Part shown: positions 20,493 to 54,710 of the stretch, one piece after another
Position numbering within the stretch: position 1 is the stretch's first letter
Layout of the letters: each line of letters begins with the position of its first letter
DNA from: Ferrithrix thermotolerans DSM 19514
GTDB taxonomy: Bacteria; Actinomycetota; Acidimicrobiia; Acidimicrobiales; CAIXPF01
Reading direction: 5' to 3'
Length of the DNA stretch: 64,000 bases
NCBI GenBank assembly: GCA_945906305.1
Contig: CAMDQT010000002.1
Coordinates: 1-64,000 of the forward strand
Made by a program: the position numbers and the translations under genes
Notes under the pieces: generated by a model
What the model was told of the DNA's origin: nothing
Databases searched by the model: none
Seen by the model: only the letters and a program-made list of their open reading frames with translations

Positions 20493-22049
20493 ATGAGTTG
20501 GCAGCCGGAGATTGATGAGCTGCGGGAACGGCAGCACTTGGCCGCGCAGATGGGTGGAGCGGAGCGTGTGGCGCGCCAGAAGGCGGCCGGGAAACTCACC
20601 ATCCGGGAGCGTTTCTCGGCCTTCGCCGACCCGGGTTCCTTCGAGGAGGTGGGGTCCACGGCGGGGGTGGGCACCTATGACGAGGACGGCAATCTCGTTT
20701 CGTTCATCCCGGCAAACTTCTTGTGCGGTACCGCCGAGGTCGATGGCCGTACGGTGATCGTGTCCGGTGACGATTTCACCGTACGCGGCGGATCCAACGA
20801 GTTCACCATCCCGGCCAAGCGTGACTTCGCCGAACGCATCGCCGTGGAGTTGCGCCTGCCCCACGTCCGCTTGGTCGATGGTATGGGCGGCGGCGGCTCG
20901 GTCAAGATGATTGAGATAAAGGGCCGTACGAGCATCCCGCAGATGTCGGGGTGGGAGACCGTCGTGGAACATCTCGGCGTGGCCCCCTCGGTGGCGCTCG
21001 CTCTGGGATCGGTGGCTGGTATCGGTGCCGCCCGGGTGGCGACGAGCCACTACTCCCTCATCGTGGCGGAGACGGCGCAAATGATGATCGCCGGCCCGGC
21101 GCTGGTCGATCAGGCATCGCTGGGCTCGGTGTCCAAAGAGGAACTCGGCCATGGCTTGATCCACACGTCCAACGGCGCAATCGACGACATGGTCGCCACG
21201 GAGGAAGAGGCCTTCGAGCGGGCCCGCCGCTTCCTGTCCTACCTGCCCCAAAACGTGTGGGAGCTGCCACCGCGGGGACCATTGACCGATGATCCGAACC
21301 GTGGGGATGAGAAGCTAATCAACATCGTGCCTCGACAACCGCGTCGAGTTTACAAGATGCGCGAAATCATCGAGAGCGTGGTGGATGTCGGCAGCTTCTT
21401 CGAGATGGGCAAGGGCTGGGGGAAGTCGATCATCACCGGCTTCGGTCGACTCGACGGCTGGCCGGTGGCCATCTTCGCCGAGGATCCTTATCAGTACGGT
21501 GGTGCTTGGACTGCGGCATCGAGCCGCAAGCTGACACGATTTCTCGACCTGGCGTCGATGTTCCACCTGCCGCTGATCCATCTCGAGGATTGCCCGGGAT
21601 TCCTCATCGGCAAGCAGTCGGAGGAGGAGGCCACGATCAGGTTTGGCTCGATGGCCCTCGCCGCCCTCGGCCAGTCCAGTAGCCCGTTCTGTTGCATCGT
21701 CATCCGTAAAGCGTTTGGCGTGGCCGGCGCGGCCAACCACAAGGGTGCCACCACTCACTTCCGCTACTCCTGGCCGTCGGGGGACTGGGGCTCGCTGCCG
21801 ATCGAAGGCGGTCTCGAGGTGGCCTACAAGGCGGAGTTGGCGCCGTTCGAGGGCGAGGAGTTCGACCGTGAGGTGGGCAAGATCCGCGATCGGCTCAACC
21901 GCTATCGCAGTCCATTCCGCTCTGCTGAGCCATTCGAGATCGAAGAGATCATCGACCCGCGCCATACCCGATCATTGTTGTGCCGTTGGGCCAACCTCGT
22001 CGCCCCGTCACGCCAACCCGGGCCGGTGAGCTGGACCTACCGTCCCTGA
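20493..22049 (+). CDS. Acyl-CoA carboxylase beta (carboxyltransferase) subunit
   Basis: A 518-residue carboxyltransferase of the propionyl/methylcrotonyl/geranyl-CoA carboxylase type. It transfers CO2 from carboxybiotin to an acyl-CoA. Both crotonase-like halves are visible: N-terminal (MGGAERVARQKAAGKLTIRER, seen as KAAGKLTIRERFSAF; VDGMGGGGSVKMIE; GSVAGIGAARVA) and C-terminal (IIESVVDVGSFFEMGKGWGKS, seen as SFFEMGKGW; LEDCPGFLIGKQSE; GAANHKGATTHFRYSWPSGDWG, seen as AANHKGATTHFRY). No biotin carboxylase alpha subunit lies nearby, so it needs a partner encoded elsewhere. ATG at 20493 follows GGGGGAGAG. The ATG at 20466 is less likely. The exact acyl-CoA is unknown. Confidence 0.87.
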   Translation: MSWQPEIDELRERQHLAAQMGGAERVARQKAAGKLTIRERFSAFADPGSFEEVGSTAGVGTYDEDGNLVSFIPANFLCGTAEVDGRTVIVSGDDFTVRGGSNEFTIPAKRDFAERIAVELRLPHVRLVDGMGGGGSVKMIEIKGRTSIPQMSGWETVVEHLGVAPSVALALGSVAGIGAARVATSHYSLIVAETAQMMIAGPALVDQASLGSVSKEELGHGLIHTSNGAIDDMVATEEEAFERARRFLSYLPQNVWELPPRGPLTDDPNRGDEKLINIVPRQPRRVYKMREIIESVVDVGSFFEMGKGWGKSIITGFGRLDGWPVAIFAEDPYQYGGAWTAASSRKLTRFLDLASMFHLPLIHLEDCPGFLIGKQSEEEATIRFGSMALAALGQSSSPFCCIVIRKAFGVAGAANHKGATTHFRYSWPSGDWGSLPIEGGLEVAYKAELAPFEGEEFDREVGKIRDRLNRYRSPFRSAEPFEIEEIIDPRHTRSLLCRWANLVAPSRQPGPVSWTYRP

Positions 22050-41007: not shown

Positions 41008-42231
41008 TCAGCGGAAGTTGCCGGTGTGGCCCATGCTGAAGCGGCCCGGTTGCGGGAAGTACGTCAACCCGTGGGCACCGGCGCCGGTCTTGATCCGCCG
41101 GGTCAGCGTTCCGCTGGACGTGTCGAACACGTACACCTCGCCGTGGTAGCGGCCGCTCACCCAGAATTGGCTCCCGTCCGCCGAAACCGATCCCATGTCC
41201 GGTGATCCGCCGTTGGGGATCGTCCACGTGGCTACTACCTGCTGGGTGGCGAAATCGATCACCGAAACCGAGCTGCCGAGCCGGTTGGTGGCGTAGAGCT
41301 TGGCACCGTCTCGGGACGGGTACAGGCCGTGAGTGCCCCTGGCGGTGGGGATGAAGCCGATCTCGTGCAAATCGCCCGGATCGAGCACGATCACCCCGGC
41401 CCTGGCCTGGTCCGCCACAAAAAGGCGGGTGCCGTCGGGGGAGAACTTCACGTCGATGGGCTCGACGCCGACCTTCGCTTCGACCACCAGTCGCAGTTCA
41501 ACGAGGTCGACTTTGACCACCCAACCGGAGAACTCGCAACTGGCGTAGAAGTACCGTCCGTCGGGGGAGAAATCACCGTGGTTCACACCAGGATGAGGCA
41601 CCGCGATGCTGTGTAGCAACTTCCAACTTGACGGGTCGCGGATGTCTATGCGCTGGTAGCGCTCGGCGATCACCAGGGCGTAGCGGCCATCGGGCGAGAA
41701 ATACAGGTTGTAGGGGTCTTCGACGGGGATCCCGGCACCAATGGTGGTGGTTCCCGGGGTGATGGGGTAGATGGCATTGCCTGCGGTGTCAAGGACGTAG
41801 AGCGTCGAGAGGTCCCAACTCGGGGTCACGTGGTGGGGAACTAACCCGACCGGGGCGGTGAGCACCACGTCGCCGGTCGCCGGGTTGATGATCGTGATCG
41901 AACGGGCGTCGCTGTTGGGCACATAGACCATGGGGGTCACCGCGGCCACCTTCGGTGCGAGCATGCCCGCCCGGGTGAACGCGTACAGGTCGAGTCGCGG
42001 CACGGTGGTCGCCACCACGGTGGACGCCACGGCAGTTGTCGCCAGGACCGTTGTCTCCGCGGCCATGGTTATCGCCGGGTGGGGGACGGGAGGGGACGCG
42101 GCCGCGTCGTTAACCACATCGGGCTGCCCTTGAACGGCCACTTGACCCGGCGCGGGCGAACACGCCGCGAGCGTGAGGCTGCCGGCTCCGAGAATGAGGG
42201 TGACCAGCCGGAGTCCTCGCCGCGCACGCAC
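41008..42231 (-). CDS. YncE-like beta-propeller lipoprotein
   Basis: A 407-residue exported protein. The signal peptide ends in a clear lipobox LAAC (Cys 24). A Thr/Val-rich spacer (ETTVLATTAVASTVVATT) follows, then a seven-bladed propeller of YVTN/YncE type with repeated PDGRYxxV and xxVIDxATxxVxxTxxxG blades (YVPNSDARSITIINPATGDV, SPDGRYFYA, SVIDFATQQVVATW, SADGSQFWVSG). Such proteins sit outside the membrane and may bind ligands or serve as scaffolds; no catalytic residues can be assigned. GTG at 42231 is chosen because TACCCT lies 6 nt before it; the longer frame to 42558 runs through non-coding sequence. A paralogue is encoded at 51.6 kb. Confidence 0.87.
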   Translation of the reverse strand: MRARRGLRLVTLILGAGSLTLAACSPAPGQVAVQGQPDVVNDAAASPPVPHPAITMAAETTVLATTAVASTVVATTVPRLDLYAFTRAGMLAPKVAAVTPMVYVPNSDARSITIINPATGDVVLTAPVGLVPHHVTPSWDLSTLYVLDTAGNAIYPITPGTTTIGAGIPVEDPYNLYFSPDGRYALVIAERYQRIDIRDPSSWKLLHSIAVPHPGVNHGDFSPDGRYFYASCEFSGWVVKVDLVELRLVVEAKVGVEPIDVKFSPDGTRLFVADQARAGVIVLDPGDLHEIGFIPTARGTHGLYPSRDGAKLYATNRLGSSVSVIDFATQQVVATWTIPNGGSPDMGSVSADGSQFWVSGRYHGEVYVFDTSSGTLTRRIKTGAGAHGLTYFPQPGRFSMGHTGNFR

Positions 42232-42237
42232 TCGCTT

Positions 42238-42243
42238 AGGGTA
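42238..42243 (-). promoter_or_regulatory. TANNNT -10 box, leaderless start
   Basis: On the minus strand TACCCT lies 6 nt before the GTG at 42231 of the beta-propeller gene. Confidence 0.5.
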
Positions 42244-42457
42244 GTCCGCCCATTGCTGCGGACCGACATGAGGGGCTGCTAGAGCGCGCAGAGCGCGCCG
42301 ACGGCAGGTCGGTAAGCCCACAGCCGACCCGATAGGCGATACACCGAGGCCGAGCAGAGGTCGATAACCGGACGGAGTGCCCAGGAGGCCCGGTGTCGAA
42401 TTCGGACCACGCATCAACTGAGGTGCCGGCGAGCGAGCGTGCGGGTGCCTCCCCAAC

Positions 42458-42715
42458 GTGGCGCGCGTCCGGTCCGCCCGACAGGCCCATGCCGCCGTCA
42501 TGGGGCTTCGGACCGAGCGGCCGAGCCTCGGTGATGACAGCGAGGTGCGCCGCATCATCGACGAGTGTCACGCCACGGCGCACGGTGTGTTGCGCGATCA
42601 CCGTGAGCGGCTTGAGGTCCTTGCCCATCGGCTCTTGGAGCGCGAGACCCGCGACGAGTCCGAGATCTACGCCGCGGTCGGGTTCGATCGGCCGCTGTCC
42701 ACGAATCGCGACTAA
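42458..42715 (+). CDS. Small stand-alone protein resembling the C-terminal tail of FtsH
   Basis: 85 codons from GTG 42458, or 71 from ATG 42500. From the ATG the product reads like the helical end of the FtsH M41 peptidase domain: SEVRRIIDECHATAHGVL, RDHRERLEVLAHRLLERET, then DESEIYAAVGF, matching FtsH tails of the form EVRRIIDEA...LLxxETLD..EI. An in-frame stop at 42419 excludes an upstream ATPase or HExxH zinc site, so this is a small protein or a remnant. No convincing ribosome site or -10 box is seen at either start. DedA follows on the same strand. The role is unknown; it could cap or modulate FtsH. Confidence 0.6.
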   Translation: MARVRSARQAHAAVMGLRTERPSLGDDSEVRRIIDECHATAHGVLRDHRERLEVLAHRLLERETRDESEIYAAVGFDRPLSTNRD

Positions 42716-43412: not shown

Positions 43413-43438
43413 CCGCACCCGACCGGCCCTCTGGCCAA

Positions 43439-43454
43439 ACGAACATGTGTTCGA
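43439..43454 (+). promoter_or_regulatory. LexA/SOS box
   Basis: ACGAACATGTGTTCGA contains CGAACATGTGTTCG (43440-43453), a perfect match to the Gram-positive SOS consensus CGAAC-RNRY-GTTCG. It abuts the TAACCT -10 box (43455-43460). A repressor bound here would block the promoter of the small gene at 43468. Confidence 0.75.
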
Positions 43455-43460
43455 TAACCT
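43455..43460 (+). promoter_or_regulatory. TANNNT -10 box, leaderless start
   Basis: TAACCT ends 7 nt before the ATG at 43468 and directly follows the SOS box. Confidence 0.6.
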
Positions 43461-43467
43461 GAGCACT

Positions 43468-43812
43468 ATGAATGATCACGACGAACGCCCTGGCGGACCC
43501 CTCGACCCCCCGGCGGGGTCGGCTCCCTCGGAGCGGGTCGATCCAAGGGGCCGATGTCTGGCTGTGGCCAAGTTGTGGCTGGACGGGCGGCTTACCCCGG
43601 CCCAGGGCGCCACCCTGGCCGTCGCCGCCGACGGAGGCGGGTGGCGCGTCGCGGCCCGCCTGGCCGAGCACGACCCTTTCGTGCGCACCTACGGCTTGTC
43701 GCTGCAGCTTGAGGATGGACGGGCCCTGCACGGCCGGGCACAGCTCGCCGCGGCGGGCGACGGACAGGTGGTATTCGAGGGTCGTGAGCCGCCCGAAGGA
43801 GGTTGGGTGTGA
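43468..43812 (+). CDS. Hypothetical 114-aa protein, predicted SOS-regulated
   Basis: Not recognised as any named family. The first 30 residues are acidic and Pro-rich (MNDHDERPGGPLDPPAG), probably disordered. The rest is a compact region, GRCLAVAKLWLDGRLTPAQGATLAVAADGGGWRVAARLAE seen in parts, then LQLEDGRALHGRAQLAAAGDGQVVFEG, with predicted helix then strands. There are no Cys pairs or membrane segments. ATG 43468 is preferred over GTG 43447, since a -10 box lies 7 nt before it and the GTG falls inside the SOS box. It ends 31 nt before the dimethylformamidase-like gene, so both may share the SOS-controlled transcript. Confidence 0.7.
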   Translation: MNDHDERPGGPLDPPAGSAPSERVDPRGRCLAVAKLWLDGRLTPAQGATLAVAADGGGWRVAARLAEHDPFVRTYGLSLQLEDGRALHGRAQLAAAGDGQVVFEGREPPEGGWV

Positions 43813-43843
43813 ATCATCCCGGCGCGGTGGCTAAACAGGCGCC

Positions 43844-46024
43844 ATGTCCAACGCTGCGCGGACCAAGACCTTGGTGGGTTACTGCGATCCGTTCGCAGTC
43901 AGGCCTGGGGAGCAGATCGACCTGATGATGAGTGCGGACCCGGACCGAGGCGCCGGTCCGGGACCCTGCCGGGTGGAGTTGGTGCGAACCATCTGCGGTG
44001 ATCCGTCCTCGAAGGGCCCAGGCTGGCGGGAGGAGGTCCTCGGGCCCCACCAGCTCGCAGGGGTGTCGTGGCCTGAGGTGATCAATGTCTCTCACCAGCC
44101 ATTGCGGCCAGGTTCCTCGGTCCAGATCCCCGCTGATGGGTGGCTGGATGCGCTGGGGAGCTTCACGTTCGAGGTTCTGGTCTACCCGACCCGCCTTGGC
44201 GGCGGAGCTCAGATGCTGGCTCGCCTGGCCGGATTCGAGTTGTTCATCGACGATTACGGCGCTTTGGGTCTGGGCATTGGTGGACCGACCGGGTTCGTGC
44301 TGCGGGCCACCCGTGCGGTGGTGGCGCGTCGTTGGTGGAGGGTGACCGCGGGGTTTGATCAGGCCCGCGGCCAGCTTGTTCTGCGCCATGAGCCGTTGTC
44401 TACCCGCTCGCCGAGCGACCGGCTGCTGCTGCACGCCGGGTCGGTCGAGGTTGTGGCGGATGGCCTCGTCGGAGTTCGTGCCGGGGGAGGCCCACTGGTG
44501 CTCGGGGGCAGCTTCGACGGGCGGCTCGAGGCCCCGATCCTGCGGGGCAGTGCGCCCGCGGCCGAACTCGACGAGCAGCAGTGGGCGGCATGGGATTTTT
44601 CCCTTGGGATGGAGTCGGTCACGGTGACAGACACCGGGCCTCGTGGTCTGCACGGCCGTACCTACCAAAGTCCGACCCGGGCGGTGACCGGCGCCCACTG
44701 GGACGGCTCGGTGCAGCGTTGGACCGATGATCCAGCTCAGTACGCCGCCATCCATTTCCATCGTGACGATCTCAGCGATGCCGGGTGGGACAGCGACGTC
44801 CGCCTGACCATACCGAATGGTCTGGCTTCGGGAGTGTATGCGGTGCGGATCACCGCCGCGGACGGAGAGATCGACCGGGTGCCTTTCGTGGTGCGGCCCG
44901 CGACGGGAGCGGCCACTGCGCCGGTGGCGTTGCTGTTGCCGACGGCCACCTACTGGGCCTATGCCAACCACCGTATGAGCATCACCGGCGCCGAGTTCTT
45001 TGCCGCGAACCCCAACCTGCGTCCGGAGTTCCGTTACATCAAGGACCATCCCGCCGTGGGCTACAGCATGTACGAGTACCACGATGACGGTAGCGGGGTG
45101 ATGTACTCGTCGCGGCGCCGCCCGGTGCTGAACCTGCGTCCGGGGGCAGATGGGTGGGCATTCACCGCCGACACCAATCTCATCGCCTATCTCACGCAGC
45201 TCGATGTGGCCTTTGACGTGATCACCGATGACGACCTGCACCGTGAGGGGAGCTCGTTGCTCGAGCCGTACCGCGTCGTCATGACCGGCAGCCACCCCGA
45301 GTACTGGTCGACGGCCATGCTTGACGGGCTGACAAGTTGGCTCGACGGAGGGGGCCGGCTGATGTATCTCGGCGGCAACGGCTTCTACTGGCGGGTGGCC
45401 TGGAGCGTTGACGAGCCGTGGGTGATGGAAGTCCGCCGGGCGGAGGACGGGACCCGGGGCTGGATTGCGGAGCCCGGCGAGTACTACCACGCCTTCGGTG
45501 GCGAGTATGGCGGCTTGTGGCGCCGTCTGGGCCGAGCCCCAAACCAACTGGTCGGGGTGGGCTTCGCGGCCCAAGGATTCGACCGGGCATCGCCCTACCG
45601 CCGTCATCAAGCGAGCATTCAAGGCCGGGCGGCTTGGATTTTCGACGGGGTTGAGGCCGAGGTGTTCGGGGGGTTCGGCATCGGCGGTGGCGCCGCAGGC
45701 CAGGAGATCGACCGGTTCGACACCACGCTGGGCTCACCGGCCCACGCAGTGGTGCTCGCCACCTCCTTCGACCACAGCGCGCAGATGTTGCGCACCAAGG
45801 AGGAGTTCCTCGCCACCGCATTGTTGGACCACGATGGAAAGATCCGCTCCGATGTGGTGTTCTTCGAGGGCCCGGCCGGTGGCGCAGTGTTCTCGGTCGG
45901 TTCGATCTCGTGGTATGGCGCTCTGGCCCACAATGGCTACGACAACGACGTCGCCACCATCACCAGCAACGTGCTGCGCCGCTTCGTTGATCCGGCGCCT
46001 TTCGCGCCTCCCGACGCCCACTGA
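43844..46024 (+). CDS. N,N-dimethylformamidase large-subunit-like protein
   Basis: A 726-residue protein of the DMFase beta/large-subunit family. The N-terminal third looks like a concanavalin-type beta-sandwich (SFTFEVLVYPTRLGG, RRWWRVTAGFDQARGQL). The middle has LLLPTATYWAYANH and YIKDHPAVGYSMYEYHDDGSG, and the C-terminal part is a glutamine-amidotransferase-like core (VVMTGSHPEYWSTAMLDGL, YLGGNGFYWRVAW, AEPGEYYHAFGGEYGGLWR). In Paracoccus DMFase a mononuclear iron is held by two Tyr and a Glu. Several Tyr and Glu residues lie in the corresponding regions, but I cannot assign them. The small DmfA1 subunit is not nearby. It probably hydrolyses an amide, not necessarily DMF. Confidence 0.82.
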   Translation: MSNAARTKTLVGYCDPFAVRPGEQIDLMMSADPDRGAGPGPCRVELVRTICGDPSSKGPGWREEVLGPHQLAGVSWPEVINVSHQPLRPGSSVQIPADGWLDALGSFTFEVLVYPTRLGGGAQMLARLAGFELFIDDYGALGLGIGGPTGFVLRATRAVVARRWWRVTAGFDQARGQLVLRHEPLSTRSPSDRLLLHAGSVEVVADGLVGVRAGGGPLVLGGSFDGRLEAPILRGSAPAAELDEQQWAAWDFSLGMESVTVTDTGPRGLHGRTYQSPTRAVTGAHWDGSVQRWTDDPAQYAAIHFHRDDLSDAGWDSDVRLTIPNGLASGVYAVRITAADGEIDRVPFVVRPATGAATAPVALLLPTATYWAYANHRMSITGAEFFAANPNLRPEFRYIKDHPAVGYSMYEYHDDGSGVMYSSRRRPVLNLRPGADGWAFTADTNLIAYLTQLDVAFDVITDDDLHREGSSLLEPYRVVMTGSHPEYWSTAMLDGLTSWLDGGGRLMYLGGNGFYWRVAWSVDEPWVMEVRRAEDGTRGWIAEPGEYYHAFGGEYGGLWRRLGRAPNQLVGVGFAAQGFDRASPYRRHQASIQGRAAWIFDGVEAEVFGGFGIGGGAAGQEIDRFDTTLGSPAHAVVLATSFDHSAQMLRTKEEFLATALLDHDGKIRSDVVFFEGPAGGAVFSVGSISWYGALAHNGYDNDVATITSNVLRRFVDPAPFAPPDAH

Positions 46025-51552: not shown

Positions 51553-53088
51553 TCAGCGATCGGGTGCGGTGTCGGTGAGCACGACCAGTGCCCCGCCGTA
51601 GAGGGCCACCCACACGTTGCGGGTGGCCGGGTCGTAGGCGATGCCGATGGGCTGGTCACCGATGACGATTCTCTGGGTGACCGTGAACGTATCGGTCGCC
51701 ACTTTGGCCACCGTGTTCGAGTCGTAGTTCACCACGTAAAGGGCGCTGCCGTCATCGGAGATGGTCATGCTGCGCGCCTGGCTGCCGGTGGGTGCGCGTG
51801 CCACCACCTCGCCGTTCACGGGGTCGATCTTCGCCACCTCGCCCGCGGAGTTGATGGTGGCGTACAGCCAACGTCCCGCAGGGTCCATGACGAGATGGCG
51901 GGGCCCTGAACCAACCCCGGAGATCCACGACACGGCCAAGGTGTCGAGATCGATCACGGCGATGTCGTAGGAGCCCATCACCGCGACATAGGCCACGTTG
52001 CGGCCCGGGTCCACGGCAATGCCCCTCGGGTAGGCACCGAGGGGGATTCGATGGGTCTCCCGAGCGGTGGCGGCGTCCACCACGCTGAGGTCGTAGCCGC
52101 ACCAATTGGACACCAGGATGCGGTCGTCGCGGGCCGTGAGGGCCACAAACTTTGGCACCGGACCCACCTCGATGGCCTGATCGATGGCCATCGTCGCCAC
52201 GTTTACGCGGTACAGGTAGCTGTTGTCATGCTCGGACGCCGGGCGGCACACATCGTCGCCGGGGTTGGAGAAGCCAGGCCCGAACATCTGGTAGTTCGAC
52301 ACGTAGACGTAGCGGCCGTCGCTGGTCGGGGCGGCTTCGACCGGAGCGCCTTGGAAGGACCCTGGCCGGTTCGGGTGGCCGAGTTCCTCGAGGCGGACCT
52401 CGTCTTCGATGGTCGCCACCGGCTCGAAACTGCGGTTGTACACGGTGATGGTGTGGCTGTACATCATGTTCTGGGCGAAGAACAGCCCGCCCGGTATGTA
52501 CACGACGGACTTCGGTGTGAGGCCTGGCCCGGTGATGACCTCGGTCTGGATCATGGTGCGCTGTGCCGCCGTCAGGCCGTCAGCAGGGACCAGCATCGTG
52601 AAGACGGGCGGGCCGGGGACGCTCGATGACGTGGTGGACGTGCTGCCGGCTGTGGTGGCGTCGCTGGCCGGGGTGGACATCGTGGCGGCGCTGCTGGCCG
52701 TGGGGTCAGAGGGGCCCGCCTCGCCGTTGCGCAGCCGGACGTGGTTGACCATGTCATCCACGGAAAAGTTCACGGAGGCGGCGAGAAAGACAACGGCAAG
52801 GGTCAAGGCCACCACTACGTCGAGGACGCGAAGGCGTGGCCTGCTTGTCCAGCGGTGCGTTGGGCGGCGACGTCCGGGCCCCGCTGGGCTCTCCCCGGCT
52901 CGATCGGCGTCGACGGGTGCTTGATCGGGATCGCTCGGCCGCGGCGGCTCCGCTCCGACCGACGCCAAAAAAATTGTCGCAACCATGTTGGTCGACCAGC
53001 CCAATTGTGGCGGCGGTGCGGCCATGCTCACCGTTCGGAGCATACGGAGGGCCAACCGACTTCGGGTGGATATGACGTCCGGAGCCAT
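51553..53088 (-). CDS. Membrane-anchored YncE-like beta-propeller protein
   Basis: About 511 residues if ATG 53088 is used; 53043, 53025 and 52986 are other possible starts. A Pro/Arg-rich cytoplasmic N-terminus precedes a transmembrane helix (LDVVVALTLAVVFLAASVNF), so the bulk is outside. A Ser/Thr-rich spacer (ATTAGSTSTTSSSV) leads to a seven-bladed propeller with blades such as YVYVSNYQMFGPG, ILVSNWCGYDLSVVDAATARETHRIPLGAYPRG (in part), AYVAVMGSYDIAVIDLDTL and YVVNYDSNTVAKVATDTF. It resembles the lipoprotein at 41.0 kb in design. The function is unknown. It lies 29 bp after the acyl-CoA ligase gene on the same strand. Confidence 0.82.
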   Translation of the reverse strand: MAPDVISTRSRLALRMLRTVSMAAPPPQLGWSTNMVATIFLASVGAEPPRPSDPDQAPVDADRAGESPAGPGRRRPTHRWTSRPRLRVLDVVVALTLAVVFLAASVNFSVDDMVNHVRLRNGEAGPSDPTASSAATMSTPASDATTAGSTSTTSSSVPGPPVFTMLVPADGLTAAQRTMIQTEVITGPGLTPKSVVYIPGGLFFAQNMMYSHTITVYNRSFEPVATIEDEVRLEELGHPNRPGSFQGAPVEAAPTSDGRYVYVSNYQMFGPGFSNPGDDVCRPASEHDNSYLYRVNVATMAIDQAIEVGPVPKFVALTARDDRILVSNWCGYDLSVVDAATARETHRIPLGAYPRGIAVDPGRNVAYVAVMGSYDIAVIDLDTLAVSWISGVGSGPRHLVMDPAGRWLYATINSAGEVAKIDPVNGEVVARAPTGSQARSMTISDDGSALYVVNYDSNTVAKVATDTFTVTQRIVIGDQPIGIAYDPATRNVWVALYGGALVVLTDTAPDR

Positions 53089-53117
53089 GGCCGATCGAGG
53101 GTGACTGCGGCCGCGGT

Positions 53118-54710
53118 TCAGCCGTGGCCGAGCAGCACTTTGGCGCGTTCGCGCAGTTCGATCTTGAGCACCTTGTTGGAAGCGTTGAGCGGCAGTGCCT
53201 CGACCATCCACACCTGGCGCGGGACCTTGTAGTTGGCCATGCGCTCGCGGCACCAGGCGATCACCTCGTCGGGCGCGATGCGGCTACCAGGGGCCACCAC
53301 CACGAATGCCGCGCCGACTTCGCCGAGGCGCTCATCGGCGATTCCGATCACCGAGACCTGGCCGATGTCAGGGTGTTCGATCATCATCCGTTCGATTTCC
53401 GCCGGGTAGGCGTTGAACCCGCCGACGATGAACATGTCCTTCTTACGATCGGTGATGTCGATGTAGCCGCGCTCGTTCATCACGCCGATGTCGCCGGTAT
53501 GGAGCCAGCCATCGGCGTCGATGGTTTCCGCTGTCTGTTCGGGGTCCCCGAGGTAGCCGAGCATGTTGGTATAGCCCCGCACCACGATCTCACCCGCTTC
53601 GCCCGAGGGCAGCTCGTGGCCCTCGTCGTCGACGATGCGCACCTCAACCCCAGGGATGGCCCGGCCTGAGGTCGTGGCGATGGTCTCGGCGTCGTCCTCG
53701 GCCCGGCAGGCGGTGGCGATCCCGGTGGTCTCGGTCATGCCGAAAGCGGTGATGACCACTTCGAACCCGAGACGTTGACGCATCTGGATGACCATCTCCA
53801 CGGGGATGGTGGCGGCCCCGGTGACACAGCGGCGCAGTGAGGAGAGGTCGTAGTCCTCGAGGCGGGCATGGTTCAGCAGGCTCTGAAAGATCGCCGGCGG
53901 CCCGGGCATGATGTTGATCTTTTCCTGCGCGATGCTTTGGAGTACCTGGTCTAGGTCGAAAACGGCGCAGGGCACGATGGTGGTGCCGTACAGCAGGCAC
54001 GGCACGATGCCCCCGTTGAACCCGAACGCATGGAAGAACGGGCTGATGATGAGGAATCGCTCCTCTCGCTGCATGCCCATGCACTCGCCGTAGAAGGCGA
54101 ACGCGCGCAGTAGCGGTTCGGCCGCAACCATCACCCCTTTGGGTAAGCCGGTGGTTCCCGAGGTGAACATCACTAGGGCCACCTCGTCGCCGCTGCGGCA
54201 GGTGGAGCGCTCCATCCTTTCGGCGCGGGCGACGTCGTCGGTCTTGGCCTTGAACTCGGCCAAGCTCACCGTGGCTTCGGCGATGTCGCCGCGCAGGATG
54301 ACGGTGTGACGCAGCGCCGGTAGGTCGGCCTTGGCCTCGCGCAGCAGTGCCGGATAGTCGGTGCCGAGAAAGCCGTTGACGGTGAACAGCATCGTCGCCT
54401 TCGACTTCTGTAGGACATAGGCCGCCTCCTGGCCCCGAAAACGGGTGTTCACCGGAACGACAATGCCGCCGGCACGGAACGTGGCGAACGCCGCGACCAC
54501 CCATTCCCAGATGTTGGGCGCCCATACCGCCACCGCATCGCCTGGTTGTAGGCCATGGGCCACCATCGCCGCCGCGGTTTCGTCGATCACGTCGGCAAGT
54601 TCGGCGAAACTCAGGCGGACATCGCCGTCCACCACGCCGGGCAGATCGCCATGCTCGTTACGAGCATGGTCGACAAGTCCGCTCAAGGTTTTCGGCAATG
54701 ACCAGGTCAT
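53118..54710 (-). CDS. Acyl-CoA ligase (FadD3-like AMP-dependent synthetase)
   Basis: A 530-residue adenylate-forming enzyme that activates a carboxylic acid with ATP and CoA. The P-loop motif is MFTSGTTGLPKGVM (near 183), the A5 motif is TAFGMTETTG, A7 is GWLHTGDIGVMNERGYIDITDRKKDMF (seen as WLHTGDIG and ITDRKKDM), and the C-terminal catalytic Lys is in NASNKVLKIELRE. The pattern is close to FadD3 of steroid-ring degradation (HIP-CoA ligase) and to medium-chain ligases, but the substrate is not proven. GGAAGGAAA precedes the ATG. It heads a two-gene unit with the beta-propeller gene. Confidence 0.9.
   Translation of the reverse strand: MTWSLPKTLSGLVDHARNEHGDLPGVVDGDVRLSFAELADVIDETAAAMVAHGLQPGDAVAVWAPNIWEWVVAAFATFRAGGIVVPVNTRFRGQEAAYVLQKSKATMLFTVNGFLGTDYPALLREAKADLPALRHTVILRGDIAEATVSLAEFKAKTDDVARAERMERSTCRSGDEVALVMFTSGTTGLPKGVMVAAEPLLRAFAFYGECMGMQREERFLIISPFFHAFGFNGGIVPCLLYGTTIVPCAVFDLDQVLQSIAQEKINIMPGPPAIFQSLLNHARLEDYDLSSLRRCVTGAATIPVEMVIQMRQRLGFEVVITAFGMTETTGIATACRAEDDAETIATTSGRAIPGVEVRIVDDEGHELPSGEAGEIVVRGYTNMLGYLGDPEQTAETIDADGWLHTGDIGVMNERGYIDITDRKKDMFIVGGFNAYPAEIERMMIEHPDIGQVSVIGIADERLGEVGAAFVVVAPGSRIAPDEVIAWCRERMANYKVPRQVWMVEALPLNASNKVLKIELRERAKVLLGHG

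Follow-up and report, generated by a model that had tools for sequence, protein, structure and literature searches.

A conserved SOS box before a small, putatively leaderless gene of an undescribed protein family

Introduction

Does a palindrome that matches the LexA operator place the small unannotated gene behind it, and perhaps also the enzyme gene that follows, in the SOS response? This question is raised by a contiguous stretch of 64,000 nt (hereafter the window), for which the original prediction had proposed that a 114-aa protein is under LexA control. We analysed the promoter of this gene, its conservation in related genomes, the other LexA boxes of the genome, the neighbouring genes and the origin of the protein itself.

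Results

An operator within a compact promoter

The window contains a single perfect CGAAC-N4-GTTCG palindrome, CGAACATGTGTTCG, located immediately upstream of the small gene (Table 1). The -10 hexamer that follows the palindrome ends 7 nt before the ATG, and no fitting Shine-Dalgarno sequence was found between the two. The original prediction had described the box, the hexamer TAACCT and a start 7 nt further on, and its coordinates were exact. Judging from the position of the -10 hexamer only, transcription would start at or next to the ATG. The possible -35 hexamer sits 17 nt upstream of the -10 hexamer, and the box would therefore fill the spacer of this promoter. A GTG codon at position 43447 was rejected as an alternative start: it lies inside the operator, precedes the -10 hexamer, and is out of frame in a relative (G005) where the spacing between box and ATG is 13 instead of 14 nt. 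First-order Markov simulations (300 runs) gave an expectation of 0.14 perfect boxes per window, and a box with the -10 hexamer and the start codon attached was found in none of the runs.

Table 1. Coordinates of the features of the locus (positions in the window).
Feature	Position	Strand	Remarks
Possible -35 hexamer TGGCCA	43432..43437	+	4/6 to TTGACA; 17 nt from -10; weak, not conserved in relatives
Putative LexA operator (SOS box) CGAACATGTGTTCG	43440..43453	.	Perfect palindrome; kept in 4/4 orthologous promoters
-10 hexamer TAACCT (TANNNT)	43455..43460	+	1 nt 3' of box
114-aa protein gene (P0001)	43468..43812	+	Putative leaderless ATG start; residues ~30-111 are the core of an undescribed family
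TGGCTAAACAG element, candidate own -10 of the dimethylformamidase-like gene	43828..43838	+	5 nt before start; TGGCTAGACAG in two relatives
Dimethylformamidase beta-subunit-like gene	43844..46024	+	PF20254 DMFA2_C, E 3.6e-97; starts 31 nt after the stop of the small gene

Elsewhere in the window, the translations of two minus-strand open reading frames (41008-42558 and 51553-53253) resemble, by eye, secreted or surface proteins with beta-propeller repeats.

Conservation of the box and of the small gene

We compared the genome of the window (G000, 3.1 Mb in 52 contigs) with five other genomes of its taxonomic family (G001 to G005). Orthologues of the small gene were identified in three of them (G002, G003 and G005), with identities to the 114-aa protein of about 74%, 71-74% and 46-49%. 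This gives four orthologues when the window's own is included, three of which come from one genus. All four genomes with the small gene have a perfect box, a TANNNT hexamer one nucleotide further on (TAACCT, TAAGAT, TACACT and TATCGT), and an ATG 13-14 nt after the box. The four sequences agree at all ten half-site positions, compared with only five of the 40 columns preceding the box.

The reading frame itself is under purifying selection. The values of dN/dS range from 0.12 to 0.15 (three pairs), and substitutions accumulate at third codon positions (11/9/35 and 12/10/38 for the first, second and third positions). Since synonymous changes far outnumber the others, the small protein is real and has been maintained. 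Its N-terminal part is variable: the orthologue of G002 (L029:5125-5538) has a tail with the repeat DDGHDDGHDD that is absent in the others. The gene is missing from G004 and from G001, an incomplete genome, and would therefore be dispensable for the SOS response there.

LexA and its regulon

The genome encodes one LexA, with the domains LexA_DNA_bind and Peptidase_S24, and the lexA gene starts 25 nt after a perfect box. This gene is on G000:C35, with the DNA-binding domain encoded at around 21223-21414. Perfect boxes also precede recA, imuA-imuB, dnaE2, and a second gene of the gyrase-A/topoisomerase-IV-A type (imuA has no Pfam match and was named from its place before imuB, which encodes an IMS domain). 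The perfect motif occurs at 13 sites in the whole genome, versus three for the reversed control pattern, so about ten of these sites are in excess of chance.

The palindrome upstream of the small gene might in principle have arisen by chance or bind a regulator other than LexA, and several of the 13 perfect sites, which lie inside reading frames and lack conservation, are probably fortuitous. However, the expectation for a box with a promoter attached is close to zero, the box is conserved in four genomes, one of which encodes an orthologue with only 49% protein identity, and lexA itself carries the same site. We consider this explanation extremely improbable. LexA control of the small gene, the central claim of the original prediction, is strongly supported by the box before lexA, by the conservation among all orthologues and by the presence of the same layout at repair genes.

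Several of the other boxes have features of their own. Directly upstream of dnaE2 there are two perfect boxes in tandem with a period of 14 nt (L009:3652-3679; G000:C28:25651-25678); the ATG abuts the second of them, as it does in G003, and tandem boxes were also found in G002. The second gyrase-A/topoisomerase-IV-A-type gene (G000:C3:5866-7188) has its box on the minus strand (L004:3003-3016), with the hexamer TATGAT and an ATG 17 nt beyond the box. All six genomes of the family have a perfect box here, although the start could not be placed in G005. Related genes encoding AlkB-like proteins (2OG-Fe(II) oxygenases) have perfect boxes in two genera of the family (G004:C11 and G005:C387; L050 and L063), and in G005 such boxes also precede a helicase gene of the DEAD/Lhr type, assigned by Pfam, and a gene that resembles dinB by eye. 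Our literature search found no publication that deals with the LexA regulon in this group.

A compact SOS promoter in the order

We then considered the layout of the promoter, i.e., a box, one nucleotide, TANNNT, 4 to 9 nt and an RTG start codon, across 298 genomes sampled from the order. It was present in 183 of them, and the reversed control matched only twice (once in each of two genomes). The genes behind 30 fetched sites, which were named by eye with Pfam checks for some kinds only, include imuA, dnaE2, dinB, and AlkB-like, radical-SAM-type and 13E12/HNH-like genes. This arrangement, which the small gene of the window shares, appears to be the standard form of SOS promoter in this group. 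It also occurs upstream of genes of unknown kind, e.g., a 68-aa reading frame in L110.

The neighbouring genes

The original prediction had extended SOS control, as a possibility, to the dimethylformamidase-like gene downstream. Gene order in the relatives argues against this extension. In G002 and G003 an alpha/beta-hydrolase gene diverges from the box, which is followed on the other side by the small gene and the dimethylformamidase-like gene. G005 has the hydrolase gene, the box and the small gene side by side, with a partial dimethylformamidase-like gene about 2 kb further on, at the end of the contig. In G004 the hydrolase and dimethylformamidase-like genes are direct divergent neighbours, with neither the small gene nor the box. 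Finally, the hydrolase is gone from the genome of the window, where the best match reaches 32%, and the box has been kept. The box thus accompanies the small gene, as G004 lacks both and the window keeps both without the hydrolase.

These arrangements bear on two other explanations for the box. According to the first, it drives an operon of two genes: the dimethylformamidase-like enzyme would likewise be made in the SOS response, with the small protein as its partner. The gap of 31 nt between the genes is indeed kept in the three genomes of the genus, and inspection by eye revealed no obvious terminator within it. Yet, the enzyme gene of G004 stands beside the divergent hydrolase without small gene or box, and in G005 the small gene and the partial enzyme gene are separated by about 2 kb that holds two genes of opposite orientation, one of them CoA-transferase-like. 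Furthermore, none of eight relatives of the enzyme gene fetched from other taxa had a perfect box in the fetched locus. A conserved -10-like element, TGGCTANACAG, also lies 5-6 nt ahead of the start of the enzyme gene and resembles a separate promoter of the leaderless type. A shared SOS operon seems unlikely to us on these grounds, even if some read-through from the small gene is possible.

According to the second explanation, the box mainly serves the hydrolase, which starts about 45 nt from the other side of the box in G002, G003 and G005, and its place before the small gene is secondary. But the box was kept in the window's genome in spite of the loss of the hydrolase, the hydrolase of G004 comes without a box, and both the -10 hexamer and the putative leaderless start are on the side of the small gene. 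We regard this role for the box as very improbable. Control of the small gene by LexA, with the dimethylformamidase-like gene as a mere neighbour, is the reading that we retain below.

A diverged member of an undescribed family

The 114-aa protein matched no entry of Pfam or NCBIfam, and nothing significant in the PDB by sequence. The search of PHROGs gave one sub-threshold match (E 0.048), no relatives were found in viral contigs, and plasmids gave insignificant matches only. Convincing matches of the protein's profile were confined to the taxonomic family of the window. Weak profile matches (E ~1e-3) in other genomes were inspected one by one, and most of them look like chance (e.g., L100 and L102). 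One weak match, L101, led to a wider family of proteins of about 98 residues; the weak match in G288 is a protein of 98 residues with relatives in 47 of the 298 genomes of the order. The genome of the window, too, encodes a member of this wider family, as a second copy (G000:C38:5701-5982).

The comparison of the two families with hhalign covered 82 columns, i.e., the whole core, with a probability of 96%, a P value of 1.9e-9 and a score of 56. Removing the bait sequences gave the same result (score 55.9), and the best of 100 column shuffles scored 23.1. Both families share the motif D-G-R-x-L-x-G. The wider family carries the motifs LDWE and LVRSDG-HVFRG, the latter of which is absent from the SOS branch and replaced by LAAAGDGQVVFEG; hence, the 114-aa protein is a diverged branch and not a typical member. 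The variable N-terminal tail and the SOS box are specific to the branch of the window, and no perfect box was present in the loci of the 20 wider-family members that we fetched (L144-L163). The wider family also lacks matches in Pfam, NCBIfam and the PDB. Its members have varied neighbours (by eye ileS, and genes resembling those of SEC-C/methionine aminopeptidases, acyl-CoA dehydrogenases and deacetylases), which suggests no particular function. The original prediction that the protein belongs to no recognisable family thus holds for Pfam, NCBIfam and PHROGs, but not for the wider family. The protein is no singleton, and looks like a diverged relative of an unannotated family that was recruited to the SOS response.

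The protein has a mass of 12 kDa and a pI of 5.3, and its composition is that of a soluble protein. It has no membrane segment (the largest mean hydropathy over 19 residues is 0.7). A model built from the single sequence is poor (pLDDT 50) and consists of strands throughout. We rejected the assignment of a PilZ domain (c-di-GMP binding), as the RxxxR and D/NxSxxG motifs are absent by eye. Foldseek matched the model of pLDDT 50 to PilZ-type chains (MapZ, PA4608) only with E values of 0.16-0.33 and TM scores of 0.36-0.39, and we set the fold matches of this model aside.

Discussion

Taken as a whole, comparative sequence data indicate that the small gene almost certainly takes part in the DNA-damage response of this bacterium. 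Very probably it is a member of the LexA regulon with a leaderless mRNA, its product, a diverged relative of an undescribed small family, was recruited to the SOS response, and the dimethylformamidase-like gene is a neighbour.

The mechanism that we propose is simple. In undamaged cells a LexA dimer on the box would fill the spacer of the compact promoter and thereby block RNA polymerase. Upon DNA damage, RecA filaments would trigger the self-cleavage of LexA, the promoter would open, and translation of a leaderless mRNA, with its 5' end at or beside the ATG, would yield the soluble 12-kDa protein. Some read-through at most would reach the dimethylformamidase-like gene, and this would not be the reason why the box is kept. 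The protein most likely binds a partner rather than catalysing a reaction: it is short, it is predicted to consist of beta strands only, and the conserved positions seem for the most part to have a structural role.

This regulation resembles the LexA/SOS regulon of other Actinomycetota (Mycobacterium, Streptomyces venezuelae) in its operator, CGAAC-N4-GTTCG, and in having recA and error-prone polymerases among the targets. It differs from it by a target that is outside Pfam and NCBIfam and was found solely in the family of the window, and by a compact leaderless layout that is common in the order. There is experimental evidence for a leaderless mRNA of the SOS-regulated gene lexA in M. tuberculosis (PMC2897130), and the topoisomerase IV gene parE is a LexA target in S. 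venezuelae (PMC9380542). The regulation of the small gene would thus be of an ordinary kind, for which comparison makes a convincing case. What is new is the undescribed family of about 98 residues, which is, together with the compact leaderless SOS promoter found across the order, the more surprising part of these results.

Small lineage-restricted proteins that inhibit cell division are encoded behind LexA boxes in several bacteria, e.g., ChiZ (Rv2719c), DivS, YneA and SulA, of which the first three are attached to the membrane. The 114-aa protein is likewise small, lineage-restricted and encoded behind such a box, but it differs from ChiZ, DivS and YneA by the lack of a membrane segment, and our library searches revealed no match to any of the four. 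We speculate, with some reserve since we think it rather doubtful, that a family of small, predicted beta-strand proteins widespread in the order gave rise to a damage-inducible branch acting as a lineage-specific SOS effector or inhibitor. Its target might be, for example, division, replication or a polymerase of the imuA-imuB-dnaE2 set. If so, this role would be filled here by a protein unrelated to those that fill it in other bacteria.

The compact promoter, in which the box, the -10 hexamer and the start codon lie within about 30 nt, also offers an easy means of listing SOS genes, unknown ones among them, across hundreds of uncultured genomes. Small lineage-specific genes are common in SOS regulons and their roles emerge only one by one. 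The small gene of the window lends itself to such work: its operator and start are clear, it has orthologues that can be tested, and a family has newly been recognised behind it.
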